DNA from: Phycisphaerae bacterium | GTDB taxonomy: Bacteria > Planctomycetota > Phycisphaerae > Phycisphaerales > SM1A02 | Length of the DNA stretch: 33,924 nucleotides | Reading direction: 5' to 3' | Assembly (NCBI GenBank): GCA_016873315.1 | Contig: VGXL01000016.1 | Span: 1 to 33,924 of the forward strand | Part shown: positions 33 through 7,396 of the stretch, in pieces | Position numbering within the stretch: the first letter of the stretch is position 1 | Layout: the number at the start of each line of letters is the position of its first letter | Program-made: the position numbers and the translations under genes | Notes under the pieces: model-generated | The model's database searches: none | Told to the model about the DNA's origin: nothing | Seen by the model: the letters and a program-made list of their open reading frames with translations, nothing else

Positions 33-3000
33 ATGACCCTCGGCGGCGTGAAGCGGGTCTTGAGCGGATCGCTCCGCTCACTCGGAGTGCTCGCGACCAC
101 GATCAGTGCGTTGTCCACGGGTGGCTCGGCGTTTGCACAAAACCAGGAGCAGTCTGGGCAGGTCCTGCAGTGGGGGCTACAAGGCAGTCTCCTGCCCGGG
201 TCGCTGCTTCCGTACACGCAGGTCGCCTGTGGCCAATGGTTCACCTACGCCCTCAAGAACGACGGGACGTTGGTGGGTTGGGGGTCCAACTGGATTGGCC
301 AGATCAACACTCCAGCGGGCTTGGCTGGCGTGACGCAGATCGCGTGCGGCTCGGACCACACCTACGCCCTGAAGAACGACGGCACGCTGGTCGGTTGGGG
401 CAGCAACGAGTTTGGCCAGACCAGCACTCCTGCGAATCTCGGCGGTGTGGCAAAGGTCGTTTGTGGCAAGTACCACACCTACGCCCTGAAGAACGACGGC
501 ACACTGGTCGGTTGGGGCGCCGGTGGACCAGGGCAAAGTGGGATGTACGACTTCGGCCAGTCCGTGACCCCGACGGGCCTGACGGATGTGATCCAAGTCA
601 GCTGTGGCGGGTTGCACACCTACGCGCTGAAGAGCGACGGAACGCTCATTGGATGGGGCAGGGACTTTGAGGGGCAGATCAAGACTCCAACTGGTCTGAG
701 CGGCGTGGCGCAGGTCGCTTGTGGCGAATGGCACACCTACGCGCTGAAGAACGACGGCACGCTGGTTGGATGGGGAGCGGGCGGGTCCGGTCAGACCGGA
801 TTTCCGCATTTCGGTCAAACCGAAACGCCGAGTGATCTGAGCGGCGTCGTGCAGGTCTCCTGCGGCAGCCTCACCACCTACGCCCTGAAGAATGACGGCA
901 CGCTGGTGGGATGGGGCGGCGGCGCCATGGGCGAGGGCGTCACCCCCGCCGGGCTCAGCGGCGTGACGCGGGTCGCCTGCGGTTGGGACCACACCTACGC
1001 CCTGAAGAGTGACGGCACCTTGGTGGGTTGGGGATACAACCTCTTTGCCCAAACCAGCACCCCAGCAAACCTCAGCGCGGTCACGCGTGTTTCCTGCGGC
1101 GGCTACCACAACTACGGCCTGAAGAGCGACGGCACGCTGGTGGGATGGGGGGACAACAGCTCCGGCCAGACCGGCACACCCGCGGGCCTGAGCGTCGTCA
1201 CGCAGGTTGCATGCGGTGAGGCCCACACCTACGCGCTGCAGATCAACGGCACGCTGGTGGGCTGGGGCGACAACTTCTCCGGCCAAACCAGCTCGCCCGC
1301 GGGCCTCGGTGTCGTGTCGCAGGTCGCCTGCGGCAGCTCCCACACCTACGCCCTGCAGATCGACGGCACACTGGTGGGATGGGGCAGTAATCAAACTGGC
1401 CAGATCGATACGCCAGCGGGACTGAACGGCGTCACGCAGGTCGCTTGTGGCAACAAGCACACGTACGCCCTGCGGAGCAACGGCACGCTCGTGGGGTGGG
1501 GAGCTGGTGGAGCCGATCAGTCTGACGACTTTGGGCACTTCGGCCAGACGGTGACTCCGGCGAACCTCAGCGGCGTGACGCAGGTCGCCTGCGGCAGCTA
1601 CCACACGTACGCCTTGAAGACCAACGGCACGCTCGTCGGGTGGGGATGGAATCACTACGGTCAACGAACCACCCCCTCGGGACTTGGCGTGGTGACCCAG
1701 GTGGCCTGCGGTTTTGGCCACACCTATGCGTTGAAGAGTGACGGCACGATCCGCGGATGGGGCGACAACTGGTTTGACCAGACCACGACCCCGGCGGGCT
1801 TGCGCGGCGTCACGCAGGTGGCCTGTGGTATCGACTTCACCCTTGCCGTGTTGGCACCTGAACTCAGCACCTGCACCAATCCCGGCGGCTCTGGCACGGC
1901 GACGTTGACGACGAGTGGATCGGCGTGGGAGAACATCGGTGTGTGGACCTGGTCGAACGGTGGTGGTCCGCAGGTGCCTGGTCCGCTCTCAGCTGTCGAT
2001 CTTGGTACATACGGATCTGTAGGCAGCACATGCGATGCGCAAGCAGCGAGCTTGGTGGCTCGAAGCGGGAGCACGCTCTTGATGCCGGTGGATCTGTCGG
2101 TGCCTGCGTCTGGTCAGCCGGATCATTCGATCGATGTGAGCGGTACGGCGACCTTGGCGGGTCGCATCTGGCTCTTGGGATCAGGAGCGAGCGTGCTGCC
2201 AGCCGACCTGAACATCCCGGTCCTTCGCAGCGGGAATCCGGTGGGGAACTTTGACATCATCCAGACGACGGTGCCTGCGCCTCAAGGGAAGTTCTTGGCC
2301 TTGGTGCCGAGCGCTGGTGCGCTGGGTCAGACGCTGTACTCGCTGCGTCTCTTGGATCTGACTGGGAATGCGAACCTGACTGGTGCGAACACGGGTGGCT
2401 TCTCCGGGAGCGCTGTCGCCGCGGAGGCGATGGACTGGAACGGCGACGGGTTTGACGACTTGGCCTTGGCGATCGACTTTGGTCCAGGCCAGCCCGGAAC
2501 CTTGCAGGTCCTCTTGAACGACGGTCAAGGGAATCTTGGTGGCACGAGTGTGCAGGTCTCGACGGCGCCGAGTCCGAGCTGCCTTGCGGTGGGCGATACC
2601 AACGGCGACGGGAAGATTGATGCGGTCGTGGGCACGACGAGCAACAACCGAGCTCAGGTGTACCTGAACAACGCTCCGAGCCAGACGCCTGCCTTTACGA
2701 GTGGCTTCACCTTGAATCCCAATGGAACCCCACGGAGCGTGTGCGTGATTCCGCCCGCTACGAGCTACATGGGTTTCGGGGGTGGTGGAGTGGGCGTGGG
2801 CAGCGGTGGGAGCGGAGATGCAAGCGGCGACAAGGCGAGCATCTTCAGTCCATCGACCGGTGATGTTGAGCAGGTGATCGCACTGCCCACAACGCCGACG
2901 ACGACCACCACGCGCGGTCGTCGCGTGGCGACAGGCGGAGCATCGAGCACGACGCTGGGCGGAACCGAGCTTGGCCGTGTGGTGGTGCTCGATCCCGGCC

Positions 3001-3695
3001 CGACGGGGTCATTTGCGATCACGCAGGTGATGAATGTGCCTGGTGTACCAGTCGGCCTTGACTTTGTGGACATGGACGGCGACGGTAAGGATGAGGTGGT
3101 GACCGCGAATGCGAATCCCGTGCAGCAGGGCGTTGGGAGTGCGTACCCGGTCTTGACGCTCTTCCGTGGCCAGACCGGTGGCGGCTTCGGGAGTGCGGTG
3201 CCGATTGCGCCGACTGGTGCAAGCAGCGGACTCGATGTGAGCCTGATCGACGCGGACGGTGACGGCGACCGAGACATCGTGAGTGTGCAGCGCACGGTGG
3301 GGACGCAGTCCAAGGCCGTCGTGATGCGAATCGACACGACGGGCGCAGGCGGTCCGATGACGATCGGTGCGGAGACGGACCTTGGTGCATCGGCGCCGAT
3401 CTTGAGCACGCGCGGTGATCTTGACGGCGTGGGTGGCGAGGATCTCTTCCTCGTCGACCAAGCAGCGAGTTTCACGGGCGGCGGCGGTGCGCCGGTGGCC
3501 AAGCCATACTTGGGTGAACTAGGCAACGCGTGCCCTGCAGACATCGACGGCGATGGCCAGGTGAACGCGAAGGATCTCTCTGCAGTCTTGGCGCAGTGGG
3601 GAGCGAGCGGCAACGCCGACACCAACAACGATGGTCTCGTCGACGGCAAGGACCTGGCAGCAGTCCTCTCCAGCTGGGGTCCCTGCGGTCAGTGA
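33..3695 (+). CDS. Exported RCC1/BLIP-II-like beta-propeller, FG-GAP and dockerin-like protein
   Basis: Large predicted secreted protein of 1220 aa. The N-terminus has a basic stretch, a hydrophobic core and an Ala-rich end (GGSAFAQ), as in a Sec signal peptide. Residues about 62-610 hold 13 full and one partial copy of a repeat of about 39 residues with the core CG..HTYALK.DGTLVGWG, typical of the short RCC1-like repeats of BLIP-II-type propellers. A beta-rich stretch without recognised motifs follows (about 610-790). Then come FG-GAP/VCBS-like calcium motifs (DWNGDGFDD, DTNGDGKID, DMDGDGKDE, DADGDGDRD), and finally a C-terminal dockerin-like pair (CPADIDGDGQVN and ADTNNDGLVD, each followed by a helix and a WG). 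Function is unknown; surface display or extracellular binding is inferred. The reading frame is open to the window edge and no Shine-Dalgarno precedes the ATG at 33, so the true start could be upstream, or at the GTG at 48. Confidence 0.85.
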   Translation: MTLGGVKRVLSGSLRSLGVLATTISALSTGGSAFAQNQEQSGQVLQWGLQGSLLPGSLLPYTQVACGQWFTYALKNDGTLVGWGSNWIGQINTPAGLAGVTQIACGSDHTYALKNDGTLVGWGSNEFGQTSTPANLGGVAKVVCGKYHTYALKNDGTLVGWGAGGPGQSGMYDFGQSVTPTGLTDVIQVSCGGLHTYALKSDGTLIGWGRDFEGQIKTPTGLSGVAQVACGEWHTYALKNDGTLVGWGAGGSGQTGFPHFGQTETPSDLSGVVQVSCGSLTTYALKNDGTLVGWGGGAMGEGVTPAGLSGVTRVACGWDHTYALKSDGTLVGWGYNLFAQTSTPANLSAVTRVSCGGYHNYGLKSDGTLVGWGDNSSGQTGTPAGLSVVTQVACGEAHTYALQINGTLVGWGDNFSGQTSSPAGLGVVSQVACGSSHTYALQIDGTLVGWGSNQTGQIDTPAGLNGVTQVACGNKHTYALRSNGTLVGWGAGGADQSDDFGHFGQTVTPANLSGVTQVACGSYHTYALKTNGTLVGWGWNHYGQRTTPSGLGVVTQVACGFGHTYALKSDGTIRGWGDNWFDQTTTPAGLRGVTQVACGIDFTLAVLAPELSTCTNPGGSGTATLTTSGSAWENIGVWTWSNGGGPQVPGPLSAVDLGTYGSVGSTCDAQAASLVARSGSTLLMPVDLSVPASGQPDHSIDVSGTATLAGRIWLLGSGASVLPADLNIPVLRSGNPVGNFDIIQTTVPAPQGKFLALVPSAGALGQTLYSLRLLDLTGNANLTGANTGGFSGSAVAAEAMDWNGDGFDDLALAIDFGPGQPGTLQVLLNDGQGNLGGTSVQVSTAPSPSCLAVGDTNGDGKIDAVVGTTSNNRAQVYLNNAPSQTPAFTSGFTLNPNGTPRSVCVIPPATSYMGFGGGGVGVGSGGSGDASGDKASIFSPSTGDVEQVIALPTTPTTTTTRGRRVATGGASSTTLGGTELGRVVVLDPGPTGSFAITQVMNVPGVPVGLDFVDMDGDGKDEVVTANANPVQQGVGSAYPVLTLFRGQTGGGFGSAVPIAPTGASSGLDVSLIDADGDGDRDIVSVQRTVGTQSKAVVMRIDTTGAGGPMTIGAETDLGASAPILSTRGDLDGVGGEDLFLVDQAASFTGGGGAPVAKPYLGELGNACPADIDGDGQVNAKDLSAVLAQWGASGNADTNNDGLVDGKDLAAVLSSWGPCGQ
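216..1856 (+). repeat. Tandem RCC1-like coding repeats (13 full plus 1 partial)
   Basis: In-frame tandem repeats inside the exported protein. Ten units are about 39 codons (117 nt) long; units 3, 5 and 11 carry an extra 8-9 codons after the GWGAGG segment. The DNA is well conserved between units, for example around the codons for TYALKNDGTLVGWG. This suggests recent amplification or gene conversion. The repeats also keep a long antisense frame open (177-1721), which is an artefact. Confidence 0.9.
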
Positions 3696-3713
3696 CGATC
3701 GATCGTCGTCACT
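3691..3713. terminator. Palindromic hairpin shared by two convergent genes
   Basis: A perfect 8-bp inverted repeat, AGTGACGA and TCGTCACT, is separated by 7 nt. It contains the stop codon of the upstream plus-strand gene (3693-3695) and, symmetrically, the stop of the minus-strand dsbD (3709-3711). There is no T-tract on either side, so a bidirectional terminator or 3'-end-protecting stem is possible but not proven. Confidence 0.4.
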
Positions 3714-5661
3714 TCCCCGCGCGTTCAATCGCCGAGACCACATCGCCCGGCGTGTAGAGCTCGCTCTTCCAGATCGGGCCGTCCTTGGGCGACACGATCA
3801 CGAGCAGCGGGATCGTCGCGCCGCCTGCCGACTTGAGCCGATCGCCGCGGGCGGGCACGCCGCTCGTCAGGTCGACCTTGAGCGGCACCACCCCGTGCGC
3901 TTCGAGCGCATCGAGCACGGCCTGTGATTCGAGCACGGTCTTCTCGAGCGTCTTACAGTTGATGCACCAATCCGCGGTGAAGTCGACCATCACGATCTTG
4001 CCATCCTTGATCGCAGCGGCCTCGCGCTCGGCGGTCCAGGTCTGCCAGTGGATCGCTTCGTAGGTCATTGACCATCCGATCAGCGCGCTCAGGCCAGCGA
4101 TGAACAGCCCGACGCCGCCGAACACCGTGCGGTTGCGCGGGCTCTTCGCGAGCTTCAGTGTGCCGCGCACGAGCCAGAGTCCAGCCCCAATGCCCGAGAG
4201 CGCAACGAGCCACCAGTACGCGTGACTTGGTTCTTCGAGATAGCCGTTCACGCCGCTGCCAACGAAGTAGATGCCCGCGGCCAAGAGCAGAAGTCCCATG
4301 CACTGCTTGAGCAGTTCGCCAGCCGCGCCGCCGCGCGGCATGCGGTCGACCAAGCGTGGATTCATGCTGAGCAGCAGATACGGCAGCGCCATACCCAGAC
4401 CGATCGATGTGAAGACCAGCATCACGGTGCCCGGATCTTGGATCTTGATCGCGTAGCCCGCCGCGGCGCCCATCAACGGCGCGGTGCACGGCGTACTCAA
4501 GACAGCGGTCATGATGCCGAACACGAAGCTTCCGCCTGCGGATTCCTGCTTCGTTTCGATCGAATAGACCCAGTTGGGCAACCCGACGGTGAAGAAGCCT
4601 GCCATCCCGATCGCCATCACGCAGATGAAGATGCCCACGGCGATCGTGAACCATGGCAATTGGAAGAGCGCATTGAGCTGCGCGAAGCCCTCGAGTGACT
4701 TGATCCCGGTGCTCGCGAGCGCGAAGAGCGTGCCCAGTGCGACCCAGAAGAAGACGACGCCCAGGCTCATGATCCCGCCCAACTTCAGCATGCGGCCCTT
4801 GGTGCCAGCCGCGCGCGACAGGCTCATGATCTTGAGCGGGATGACGGGCAGCACGCACGGCGTGAAGTTCAAGAGCACGCCGCCGAGCGCAGCAAGCAGT
4901 GCCAGCAGCACGAGCCCTGAACCGCGCGGATCGATCTCGAAGCGAATCGAGTCGGTGAGCTTGAACTCCAACGACATCGGGGCCGCTTCGCCCCCACGGA
5001 TGCGCCCAAAGACCGCTGGATCGAATCCCGCGAAGAGATCACCAGCGGGCGCGGTTGTGGCTGCGCCGCCGAGCTTGAGCGAGATCGTCTCAGTCACATC
5101 CGCCGGAGCAAGGCATGTCGCGCTGTCGCAGCTCTGAAAGCCAGCCTGCACCGTGAGCGTGACGGTTCCGGTTGCACCGTGCGCGATCGTGACTGGCACG
5201 AAGACCACCGAGCGGCCTTCGAAGACCGCGTAGGACAGCTCGCCGTCGCCAAGATCGGCCTTGACCGTGTGGACCTCGGGCCACTGGGCGAAGCCGTCGT
5301 GCACGATGGCCTTCGCGGCGTCGCTGCTCGTCACGGAGACTGTCGTCGTGACGGCGCCGATGAACTCAGCGGTGCCTTCTGGAAGCTTGCGCTGGTTCGG
5401 CCAGGTGTGCCAACCTGGAGCGATCGTGAGCTCGACCGCGACCACCAGATCGGCACCCGCGGCGGGGCTCGTCGTCGAGGCGACGACCCGGACCTTGACC
5501 TTGTCCGTGCTCAGGCCGGTGCCGGCGTCGGCGGGCTCGCCCAAAGGCGCAGAACCGGGGAAACCACCAAGGCCGGGCGCCTGCGCGACCGCGGCGGGCG
5601 TGGCCCGGACCAGCAAGAAAAGGGTCAGAACGATCGCTGCAGGGAACGCGAAACGGGTCAT
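3709..5661 (-). CDS. dsbD: Thiol:disulfide interchange protein DsbD
   Basis: Membrane thiol reductant transporter of 650 aa, which passes electrons from cytoplasmic thioredoxin to periplasmic thiol proteins. All three DsbD modules are visible. After a signal peptide (MTRFAFPAAIVLTLFLLV) comes a periplasmic N-terminal domain with the pair C178/C183 (CDSATC). The central hydrophobic region (about 250-530, some eight segments) has the two CcdA-type motifs TPCVLP (C269) and STPCTAPL (C392). The C-terminal thioredoxin domain carries WCINC (C566/C569). Length is close to that of proteobacterial DsbD. The gene is convergent with its left neighbour and divergent from nusA. The start at 5661 has no Shine-Dalgarno but a TAGGAT hexamer six bases upstream, suggesting a leaderless mRNA. 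Likely roles are cytochrome c maturation or disulfide reduction in the cell envelope. Confidence 0.93.
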   Translation of the reverse strand: MTRFAFPAAIVLTLFLLVRATPAAVAQAPGLGGFPGSAPLGEPADAGTGLSTDKVKVRVVASTTSPAAGADLVVAVELTIAPGWHTWPNQRKLPEGTAEFIGAVTTTVSVTSSDAAKAIVHDGFAQWPEVHTVKADLGDGELSYAVFEGRSVVFVPVTIAHGATGTVTLTVQAGFQSCDSATCLAPADVTETISLKLGGAATTAPAGDLFAGFDPAVFGRIRGGEAAPMSLEFKLTDSIRFEIDPRGSGLVLLALLAALGGVLLNFTPCVLPVIPLKIMSLSRAAGTKGRMLKLGGIMSLGVVFFWVALGTLFALASTGIKSLEGFAQLNALFQLPWFTIAVGIFICVMAIGMAGFFTVGLPNWVYSIETKQESAGGSFVFGIMTAVLSTPCTAPLMGAAAGYAIKIQDPGTVMLVFTSIGLGMALPYLLLSMNPRLVDRMPRGGAAGELLKQCMGLLLLAAGIYFVGSGVNGYLEEPSHAYWWLVALSGIGAGLWLVRGTLKLAKSPRNRTVFGGVGLFIAGLSALIGWSMTYEAIHWQTWTAEREAAAIKDGKIVMVDFTADWCINCKTLEKTVLESQAVLDALEAHGVVPLKVDLTSGVPARGDRLKSAGGATIPLLVIVSPKDGPIWKSELYTPGDVVSAIERAGK

Positions 5662-5667
5662 GGGGCC

Positions 5668-5673
5668 ATCCTA
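5668..5673 (-). promoter_or_regulatory. Putative -10 element of dsbD (leaderless)
   Basis: TAGGAT on the minus strand matches TATAAT at 4 of 6 positions. It ends 6 nt before the dsbD ATG, so transcription would begin at or next to the start codon. No convincing -35 box is seen. The support comes mainly from the same arrangement at other first genes in the window. Confidence 0.45.
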
Positions 5674-5723
5674 CGGCTGGGCCAGCGCGTGGTTTGCCGT
5701 TTCCGCAGTGACGGGGAAATCGC

Positions 5724-5729
5724 TAGAAT
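5724..5729 (+). promoter_or_regulatory. Putative -10 element of the nusA operon
   Basis: TAGAAT matches TATAAT at 5 of 6 positions. A weak -35 candidate, TTTCCG at 5700-5705, lies 18 nt upstream. If used, transcription would start near 5736 and give nusA an untranslated leader of about 345 nt. Confidence 0.45.
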
Positions 5730-5814
5730 CTCGCCTCCCGCCGGGTCGTCCGAGCGGGACTCGTCTCTCGCACCCCTTCGTTGAAACGGCGCATGCTTCG
5801 ATCCATCGACAGCC

Positions 5815-6025
5815 TGCTTGCCCGCCTGCTGGCGGGTTCCGCTTCGACGGCCTACCGCTGATGGCGCGCTCGCGCGTCCATCCTTGGTCGGCCGGCGTCG
5901 GTCGCGCCTTGCTCCCCGCTTGCGGGAAGGCAGGGGGCGCCTAGCGCCAGGGAAACCACCATCTGGTGGTGCAGAGCGACGAGCCACGCGGTTGCCGCAA
6001 CCGCCGTGGCTCGATGTGTTTTTGC
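5815..6025 (+). ncRNA. Hairpin-rich candidate leader RNA upstream of nusA
   Basis: The 421-base gap between dsbD and nusA has no credible coding sequence but holds six inverted repeats in about 195 nt. They are: 5821-5836 (6 bp, TGCT loop); 5860-5882 (9 bp, CTCG loop, one bulged base); 5915-5926 (CCCG, CTTG loop); 5936-5948 (GGCGC, CTA, GCGCC); 5955-5970 (ACCACC, ATCT, GGTGGT); and 5980-6013 (15 bp with one bulged C). GCGCC at 5904-5908 could pair with GGCGC at 5936-5940 and compete with the fourth hairpin. I do not recognise a known RNA family (not RNase P, tmRNA or SRP RNA). It may be an attenuator, a cis-regulatory RNA, or a cluster of extragenic palindromic repeats. Confidence 0.45.
5980..6023 (+). 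terminator. Terminator-like hairpin before nusA (possible attenuator)
   Basis: Arms CGAGCCACG+CGGTTG and CAACCG+CGTGGCTCG form a 15-bp stem with a 3-nt loop and a single bulged C at 6004. A run of five T follows at 6019-6023, five bases after the stem. The T-run is short and offset, so termination may be weak or conditional. It lies about 60 nt before the nusA ATG. Confidence 0.45.
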
Positions 6026-6082
6026 GCGGCGACAACTCACCAACCTTCCAATCCATCAACTCAGCACGCCAAGGACCAGACC

Positions 6083-7396
6083 ATGAACCAAGAAACGCTC
6101 CGCATCCTCGAATCGATCGCCCGCGAACGCAGCATCGACCGTGAACTCCTGATCCAGGACCTGGAGCAGGCCATGGTCAGCGCTGCGCGCAAGCACTTCA
6201 ATTCGCTCGATCCCGAGGAGTTCGGCTGCGAGATGGACCGCCTCACCGGCGCCATCACGCTTTGGCGCAATGATCTGGAGACTGGCGAGCGCGAGAACAT
6301 TCCGCTCGCTCGCTTGGGCCGCATCCCTGCGCAGACCGCCAAGCAGGTCATGATCCAGCGCTTCCGCGAGGACGAACGCAGCAGCCTGCTCGACCAATTC
6401 AGCAAGCGCCAGGGCGAACTCGTCACGGGCGTCGCGCAGCGTTACGAGGGCAACGCGCTCATCGTGCAGATCGACCGCGCCGAGGGCTTCATGCCGCGCA
6501 GCGAGCAGATCCCCGGCGAGCAATTCCAGCCCGGCGATCGCGTGCGATGTCTCCTGCTCGATGTGCGCGACGCGGGTCATCAGGTCAAGATCGTCCTCAG
6601 CCGCGCGCACCAGGACTTCATTCGCCGCCTCTTCGAGGCCGAAGTTCCCGAAGTCGCCGAGCGCACCATCGAGATCAAGGCCATGTCGCGTGAGCCGGGC
6701 TTCCGCACCAAGCTCGCGGTCGCGAGCATCGACAGCAAGGTCGATGCCGTCGGCGCGTGCGTCGGCGTGCGTGGTAGCCGCATCCGCAACATCGTCGATG
6801 AACTCGGCGGCGAAAAGATCGACATCGTTCGCTGGAACGAGAGCAGCCAGATCCTGATCTCGAACTCGCTCAAGCCCGCCGAAGTCGAGGAAGTCAGCCT
6901 GTGTTTCGAGCTCGGCCGCGCCACGATCATCGTGCGCGACGACCAACTGTCGCTCGCCATCGGCCGTCGCGGTCAGAACGTGCGCTTGGCCGCACGCTTG
7001 ACTGGTTGGGACGTCGACATCCTCACGCCGCCTGAGTTCCAGCGCGGCCTCGAGATCCTTGAGGAAACCGTGCGCGGCGTCGAAGGCGTCACGGACGAGA
7101 TGCTCGACCGTATGGGTGTCCTGGGCCTCATCAGCGTCTTTGACGTCGAAGAGGTCGGCGAGGCGATCCTCGTCAACGAAGCCGGCATGGGCGAAGAACT
7201 CGCTGTTGCAGTCGTCGATGCGTGCACCGAGCGTGCCAAGGTCGTCGCTGCCGAGCAGGAAGCCGCCAAGCAGGCCGAGGCCGAGCGCCTTGCTGCCGAA
7301 GGCGGCGACGTGGTCGATGGCATCCTCGGCGGTGGCCAATCCGCCTCGCCCGATGCGGCGAGCGAAGCCGCGGCGGACGACATCCTCGGGCGTTGA
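6083..7396 (+). CDS. nusA: Transcription termination/antitermination protein NusA
   Basis: RNA-polymerase-binding elongation factor of 437 aa that modulates pausing, termination and antitermination. Domains in order: the N-terminal polymerase-binding domain (1-105, starting MNQETLRILESIARE), an S1 domain (about 108-180), and two KH domains with GxxG loops GVRG and GRRG. A helical C-terminus follows (about 325-400), then an Ala/Glu-rich tail ending in DDILGR. It lacks the long duplicated acidic repeats of E. coli NusA (495 aa). I chose the ATG at 6083 because AAGGA lies 7 nt upstream and the protein then begins exactly at the family start; frame further upstream runs into the hairpin region. 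It leads the nusA-infB-rbfA block; the usual upstream rimP is missing. Confidence 0.96.
   Translation: MNQETLRILESIARERSIDRELLIQDLEQAMVSAARKHFNSLDPEEFGCEMDRLTGAITLWRNDLETGERENIPLARLGRIPAQTAKQVMIQRFREDERSSLLDQFSKRQGELVTGVAQRYEGNALIVQIDRAEGFMPRSEQIPGEQFQPGDRVRCLLLDVRDAGHQVKIVLSRAHQDFIRRLFEAEVPEVAERTIEIKAMSREPGFRTKLAVASIDSKVDAVGACVGVRGSRIRNIVDELGGEKIDIVRWNESSQILISNSLKPAEVEEVSLCFELGRATIIVRDDQLSLAIGRRGQNVRLAARLTGWDVDILTPPEFQRGLEILEETVRGVEGVTDEMLDRMGVLGLISVFDVEEVGEAILVNEAGMGEELAVAVVDACTERAKVVAAEQEAAKQAEAERLAAEGGDVVDGILGGGQSASPDAASEAAADDILGR

Follow-up and report, generated by a model that had tools for sequence, protein, structure and literature searches.

A conserved leader before nusA-infB-rbfA in Phycisphaerales with a terminator-like hairpin, a competing upstream helix and overlapping small ORFs: a probable variant of transcription attenuation

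The sequence upstream of nusA in the Phycisphaerae genome studied here is probably a transcription attenuator of the nusA-infB-rbfA operon that reads ribosome activity on small leader ORFs, with NusA probably favouring termination. Its anatomy, in which a terminator, an antiterminator (the helix P1) and leader ORFs precede nusA in a fixed order, is well supported by sequence comparison; the signal and the sign of regulation are what we infer from it. We regard the leader as a real element that many genera and several families of the order share, and would class it with the transcription attenuators, as a new variant among them. The window analysed (33,924 nucleotides of contig VGXL01000016.1) and its genus carry the terminator, P1 in a weak form and the ORF pair, without the minigene that ends the second ORF in many genera. 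An earlier note on this DNA had proposed either a cis-regulatory RNA of the nusA-infB operon or a cluster of extragenic palindromes, and had named conservation and covariation upstream of nusA in relatives as what would speak for the former. Both are found, and its reading is thus partly supported; the terminator/antiterminator pair and the probable translation of the leader had escaped it.

nusA is the first gene of the operon, with infB and then rbfA downstream. The intergenic interval 5662-6082 separates it from a divergent dsbD-like gene (3709-5661, minus strand), and near this region the window also encodes a large protein with RCC1 and FG-GAP repeats (33-3695). The interval had been called gene-free, a description that fails because two small overlapping ORFs, uORF1 and uORF2, lie inside it (Table 1). 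The TAGAAT proposed as a -10 box is where the earlier note placed it, and TAGAATC is invariant in 8/8 aligned genomes of the window's genus; a promoter scan of the window recognised no -35 box. TAnAAT-type boxes occur in many relatives, 205-310 nt upstream of the terminator. By blastn the leader is present in eight of nine genus genomes searched, our own included, the other seven at 86-94% identity. From TAGAATC to the T-run the genus alignment is nearly invariant, the small hairpin 5955-5970 excepted. Sequence 5' of the -10 box is less conserved than the leader, and so are the third codon positions of nusA, which are only 79-86% identical to our copy, when set against the leader 3' of TAGAATC.

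Table 1. Features of the nusA leader in the window, with the evidence for each.
Feature	Positions	Strand	Evidence and remarks
-10 promoter box TAGAAT, predicted start ~5736	5724..5729	+	same sequence in 8 aligned genus genomes
First leader hairpin	5737..5758	+	MFE; related hairpins at the same place in groups A and C
P1 5' strand (5760-5765 with 5978-5983; 5767-5769 with 5974-5976)	5760..5769	+	anchored pairing tests, folds; own copy weaker than relatives'
uORF1, MLRSIDSLLARLLAGSASTAYR*	5793..5861	+	frame tests, sequence
Hairpin holding uORF2 start codon (AUGACGC type)	5860..5882	+	MFE; same hairpin in relatives
uORF2, MARSRVHPWSAGVGRALLPACGKAGGA*	5861..5944	+	ORF-pair statistics; without the start-codon-stop minigene of other genera
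Small hairpin ACCACC-ATCT-GGTGGT	5955..5970	+	MFE; stem and loop variable within genus
P1 3' strand, sharing 4 nt (5980-5983) with terminator base	5974..5983	+	pairing tests, folds
Terminator-like hairpin (arms 5980-5988/6005-6013; apical stem 5989-5994/5998-6003), T-run 6019-6023	5980..6023	+	motif score, covariation, R1 35.8 bits
nusA, first operon gene	6083..7396	+	Pfam NusA_N, S1, KH

The structured region singled out by the earlier note, 5815-6025, has correct coordinates and folds far below shuffled sequence: its MFE is -119.6 kcal/mol against a mean of -101.1 (RNAfold, 200 dinucleotide shuffles; z -4.0, no shuffle as low). The longer stretch 5731-6083 gives z -4.1 (RNAfold, 100 shuffles). 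The claim of six inverted repeats held in part, as the MFE structure of 5815-6025 has five apical hairpins and a sixth can be counted among the nested arms. The 15-bp hairpin was located at 5980-6013, and the one with a G(CTTG)C loop at about 5916-5927 (CCCGC-TTGC-GGG). The last hairpin, which is followed by TTTTT at 6019-6023, resembles a terminator, though a simple terminator scan gave 0 sites. No RNA family had been recognised by eye. Rfam gave no match above gathering score in the window (four at E <=10, all far below theirs), and the loci of 18 relatives gave none.

For comparison, 121 family genomes were searched, of which 113 yielded nusA, with 30 of the loci supplied directly and 60 more retrieved; nusA was also located on 80 named contigs, most of which carry the label Planctomycetota, Phycisphaerae or Phycisphaerales. 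Pooling family genomes, named contigs and the genus blastn gave 149 distinct leaders. One genome, G008, has two nusA loci (L015 on contig C48 and L003 on C150) with very different leaders and NusA proteins 91% and 99% identical to the window's, so this assembly may be contaminated. Near-identical leaders were removed before the dereplicated counts (P1, ORF, minigene), and the swap test, ORF-pair and minigene counts exclude any leader that contains N, has under 300 nt of upstream sequence or has a terminator score <19.5, a score found in 12/149. The -10-anchored P1 set comprises leaders with a recognised -10 box, 32 before and 16 after dereplication. It was on this first leader set that terminator motif, ORF-pair rule and minigene pattern were defined. 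A held-out set came from an order-wide search, out of which 40 further loci of two other families were taken; six were in or near the first set, leaving 34 new. The held-out ORF and minigene counts use the 29 of these with a terminator score of 19.5 and 240 nt upstream, the other five being dropped. This set covers terminator, ORF pair and minigene, and the P1 statistics are those of the first set.

As in an attenuator, a stable G+C-rich hairpin followed by a T-run lies upstream of the first gene. The stem GGGYCACG...CGTGRCCC with a T-rich tail before nusA scores >=20 in 133/149 leaders, from which the motif itself was derived, against 12/447 shuffles. Reverse complements reach this score in 44/149, a count raised because a hairpin reads as a hairpin on the other strand too; at >=22 the figures are 81/149 leaders, 0/447 shuffles and 3/149 reverse complements. 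Among the 34 new held-out loci, 28 score >=20 against 1/102 shuffles. The window's own stem is GAGCCACG/CGTGGCTC, and its T-tract is interrupted (ATGTGTTTTT). Alignment A1, of 91 dissimilar leaders, shows two-sided changes in 11 of 12 stem pairs, 158 cells against 46.6 when shuffled. Because eight of the 12 pairs served to select the sequences, covariation is seen more cleanly in the three apical pairs (44, 19 and 26 double changes) and in pair 8/53. The covariance model R1 scanned 31 whole genomes, many of which had contributed to its training set; in our own genome the next best match after that at nusA (Table 1) has 22.5 bits. Of 30 loci checked, 25 have the top genome-wide R1 match at nusA. 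Among the five exceptions, G034 and G036 have a lower-ranked match ~100 nt before nusA, and in the remaining three no match at nusA is among the matches listed. Within the held-out search, R1 matched at E <=0.1 on the nusA strand in 37/40 loci, one of them (L313) ~440 nt upstream of nusA. A dispersed repeat element was considered and rejected: CCACG...CGTGG occurs 238 times in our own genome against 229 in the reversed control, and of 15 further R1 matches inspected most overlap a mechanical ORF or resemble ordinary terminators.

The second structural element, P1, is formed by a segment beginning 32-37 nt after the start of the -10 box that can pair over 9-15 nt with the terminator 5' arm and the variable bases before it, in 16/16 nonredundant leaders. 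Its 5' partner lies +22 to +34 nt from the predicted start in all 16, and equally good pairing in the first 55 nt was found in 38/240 shuffled leaders. With this anchoring the composition-shuffle p is <=0.04 in 14/16 and 0.085 in two, the window included; for the window's own P1, which is mismatched at 5759/5984 and 5766/5977, p ranges from 0.085 to about 0.1. The clear signal came with -10-box anchoring. Anchored on the uORF1 start, P1 reached p <0.05 in 19/32 leaders (L031 was mis-anchored, and P1 of L022 and L069 falls outside the 80-nt window used). Over all leaders P1 appears only as a tendency. In the swap test the leader's own partner beat the swapped one at p <=0.05 in 36/133 loci, which is significant as a set only, and a free duplex search gave a mean z of -0.9, with 22% of 133 loci having <=1 of 30 shuffles as good, which is unconvincing per locus. 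P1 is paired 97-100% in groups C and A. Group C holds two compensatory pairs (CTTGG/CCAAG vs CCTGG/CCAGG), and the variable flank and its partner also change together in L034 (GTCTGTC/GACAGAC).

The computed folds, together with the fixed position of P1, describe a mutually exclusive antiterminator. A partial transcript ending at the terminator 5' arm folds with P1 in 16/16 leaders, and the full transcript folds with the terminator in 14/16. These models predict that P1 forms first and that, in many leaders, it and the terminator are then nearly balanced. If the arm is made to pair upstream, the penalty across the 16 is 0-11.7 kcal/mol. The window is the worst of them under the stricter constraint, at 11.7 kcal/mol, because 5984 is unpaired in its P1. 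The window's own P1 is incompatible with just the basal four terminator pairs (5980-5983/6010-6013), at a computed cost of 4.1 kcal/mol.

The leader also carries two overlapping ORFs. Of 49 leaders whose AUGACGC-type hairpin was identified by rule, 43 have an ATG open to its TGA within 110 nt in one frame, that of uORF1, and two and three have one in the other frames (20, 1 and 3 of 25 nonredundant leaders). A set of 36 leaders, nine with stops placed by eye and some rule-found leaders missing from it, gave 35/36 vs 2/36 and 0/36. A plain frame count is uninformative because two frames are open in such G+C-rich DNA, and it is the start-codon version that separates the frames. uORF2 starts inside the hairpin, overlapping the uORF1 stop; it was found in 34/36 leaders examined, is 22-55 codons long and ends some 20-85 nt upstream of the terminator-like hairpin. 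Many of its peptides read MT[RP]xxV...E[VAT]xxMG*. Defined by rule, the overlapping pair is present in 68/90 nonredundant leaders against a shuffle mean of 5.67 and 5/90 reverse complements, and in the held-out set in 20/29 against 1.75 expected, with one reverse complement.

The leader ORFs are likely to be translated, a reading strongly favoured by the frame and overlap statistics. Codon tests gave no sign of purifying selection on the uORF1 peptide (37 synonymous changes vs 43.3 expected) and a weak synonymous excess in uORF2 (49 vs 36.4, p 0.02); codons 1-40 of nusA change within the genus at third positions only (0, 0, 40). With codon tests that are weak or negative, conservation concerns the frame with its starts and stops and hardly the peptide. 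A Shine-Dalgarno sequence is mostly missing at uORF1, where the duplex energy is <=-4 in 5/32 leaders (one mis-anchored) vs 21/32 for nusA. Inspection of the peptides of the 36-leader sets found no run of one regulatory residue common to them.

At the end of uORF2 many leaders carry a minigene. The 95 nt that precede the terminator contain the pattern GGAG-spacer-ATG-NNN-stop, which has a single sense codon, in 37/90 leaders, where 0.20 are expected and 0/90 reverse complements have it. Variants with zero, two and three sense codons are found in 2, 2 and 0 of 90, and a relaxed form allowing GTG or TTG and a weaker Shine-Dalgarno in 57/90 vs 1.73. In the held-out set the ATG form is present in 14/29 leaders against 0.10 expected and none in reverse complement. 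The leader of the window and its genus lack the minigene; here uORF2 ends GGC GCC TAG. Among 26 nusA loci from other Planctomycetota classes (L243-L268) two matches were seen, at distances of 278 and 345 nt on the upstream side of nusA, with none closer to the gene. By eye, 18 of those 26 loci have a GTGGG...CCC[AG]C hairpin and T-run, which resembles the published rimP-leader and differs from the stem of the window's relatives. The lambda bar minigenes are a known case of two-codon minigenes. Another acts in the axe-txe leader, and such minigenes can affect translation and mRNA stability, according to PMC8708949. Both share with ours the Shine-Dalgarno sequence, start, one sense codon and stop, axe-txe likewise within a leader. 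Unlike them, the minigene here closes a longer leader ORF whose frame it shares, has a conserved terminator downstream and is missing from the window's own genus.

In attenuators of the trp/his type, leader ORFs lie beside a mutually exclusive antiterminator and terminator. The nusA leader has the same combination of leader ORFs with competing structures. It differs in having two overlapping ORFs, no regulatory-codon run that we could see and hardly any peptide conservation, and in preceding an operon for transcription and translation factors rather than an amino-acid pathway.

The closest published relative by location is the rimP-leader, described by Naville and Gautheret (2010, PMC2965389) as a conserved terminator in the leader of the rimP-nusA-infB operon, for which, in their account of the element, larger conserved elements were not found. 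There NusA is proposed as regulator, and papers of 1985 on nusA-infB autoregulation are cited; the main text of PMC2965389 contains no match to 'planctomyc'. Our element likewise consists of a conserved-stem terminator hairpin in the leader of a nusA and infB operon, with NusA as the suspected regulator, and its stem reads GGGYCACG...CGTGRCCC where GGGc...gCCC is given for the rimP-leader (PMC2965389). Like the rimP-leader it sits in the leader of this operon, ahead of nusA, infB and rbfA, though a RimP N-terminal domain was not found in our own 95%-complete genome, in a search whose control was positive in 10/14 genomes. rimP may be absent there, very divergent, or in the missing 5% of the assembly. 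The RF01770 covariance model, a narrow model run with stricter filters and over cut-off in 1/14 control genomes, was over cut-off in none of 61 family genomes; it matched weakly in 19/61, never at nusA, and gave nothing in the window. Among the literature matches listed, none describes leader ORFs, a minigene or an antiterminator upstream of a planctomycete nusA, most subscription papers lying outside the coverage of that search.

In the mechanism that we favour, P1 would be the most stable structure until the terminator 3' arm is made, and the terminator, more stable by a few kcal/mol, would then displace it. In the window P1 would take up just the 4 bp at the terminator base, beside the T-run, and this should suffice to spoil termination. 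Ribosomes translating the leader ORFs would lie within the loop closed by P1, and in some distant loci (L083 and L183, for example) the P1 5' strand itself falls within an ORF, so translation should hinder P1 and favour termination: the P1 domain would be kept open, the terminator would form and the operon would be off. The distance from the end of P1 downstream to uORF1 is 44-48 nt in group C, too great for a direct block by an initiating ribosome, so that any ribosome effect there would have to be indirect. When translation is poor (low IF2, immature 30S, cold), P1 would stand, and read-through would yield more NusA, IF2 and RbfA. NusA would work in the same direction, as its stimulation of the terminator would amount to negative feedback; autoregulation by NusA is plausible. 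Many intrinsic terminators of B. subtilis are stimulated by NusA (PMC8060035, which cites Mondal 2016). The hairpin here is likewise of the intrinsic type and plausibly helped by NusA, and the T-tract of the window is interrupted. In E. coli K12 the same operon is cold-induced and begins with an initiator tRNA gene (PMC6511841), which would fit a link to initiation and proves nothing here. A more specific version, which we offer as a tentative suggestion, is a homeostatic switch in which the coupled ORFs, minigene-ended in many genera, would gauge initiation capacity (IF2, initiator tRNA, mature 30S). Intrinsic termination would read this out, turning on the genes for IF2, RbfA and NusA when initiation or termination factors are short.

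The leader might instead be a NusA-dependent attenuator like the rimP-leader, in which NusA acts on the hairpin, P1 merely tunes it and the leader ORFs are minor. We think this doubtful but credible, given the conserved sequence of the terminator stem, the same operon and the same proposal in the rimP-leader report (PMC2965389), the stimulation of many B. subtilis terminators by NusA (as summarised in PMC8060035) and leader peptides that are barely selected; it leaves the conserved overlapping ORFs, the start-codon-stop motif and the fixed P1 partner unexplained. It is unlikely that the leader ORFs act by controlling translation, mRNA stability or Rho-dependent termination, with the hairpin and T-run as a minor or constitutive terminator. 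Such a role would suit the position of the uORF2 stop and the effects on translation and mRNA stability that the axe-txe account attributes to two-codon minigenes (PMC8708949). A constitutive terminator, however, needs no competing helix, and yet P1 is held in 16/16 leaders.

Known riboswitches have a closing helix around a multibranched domain and overlapping a terminator. P1, too, closes a multibranched domain and overlaps the terminator, and we nevertheless consider a metabolite riboswitch very improbable: Rfam gave no match in the window or in the 18 relatives' loci, start, stop and Shine-Dalgarno signals account for the conserved motifs of the domain, and its length and sequence vary strongly between genera. 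Less credible again is that the hairpin marks the end of an independent small RNA gene, or that the region is a dispersed palindromic element. The promoter and terminator-like end would serve a small RNA well, but blastn finds the region once in the genome, and relatives carry it at nusA, where the terminator model also has its top match in most of the loci checked; the palindrome cluster suggested by the earlier note is therefore ruled out.

How bacteria control the level of NusA and IF2 is an old question. A position-fixed antiterminator with two overlapping ORFs, often with a one-codon minigene, across many genera is a directly testable design, and in such a design translation initiation itself could set the transcription of an initiation factor gene. 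A seemingly gene-free leader can be full of small ORFs.

The leader ORFs vary in form among more distant relatives. Five leaders (L181, L183, L185, L182 and L073) have a longer ORF of 38-44 codons with a shared GPR stretch, which contains the antiterminator strand itself. In distant families (L083, L095, L096, L098, L099, L107, L117, L283, L292 and others) uORF1 is often exactly nine codons long, many of these reading MxxxxxH[AV]R*, and the uORF2 start overlaps codons 6-8.
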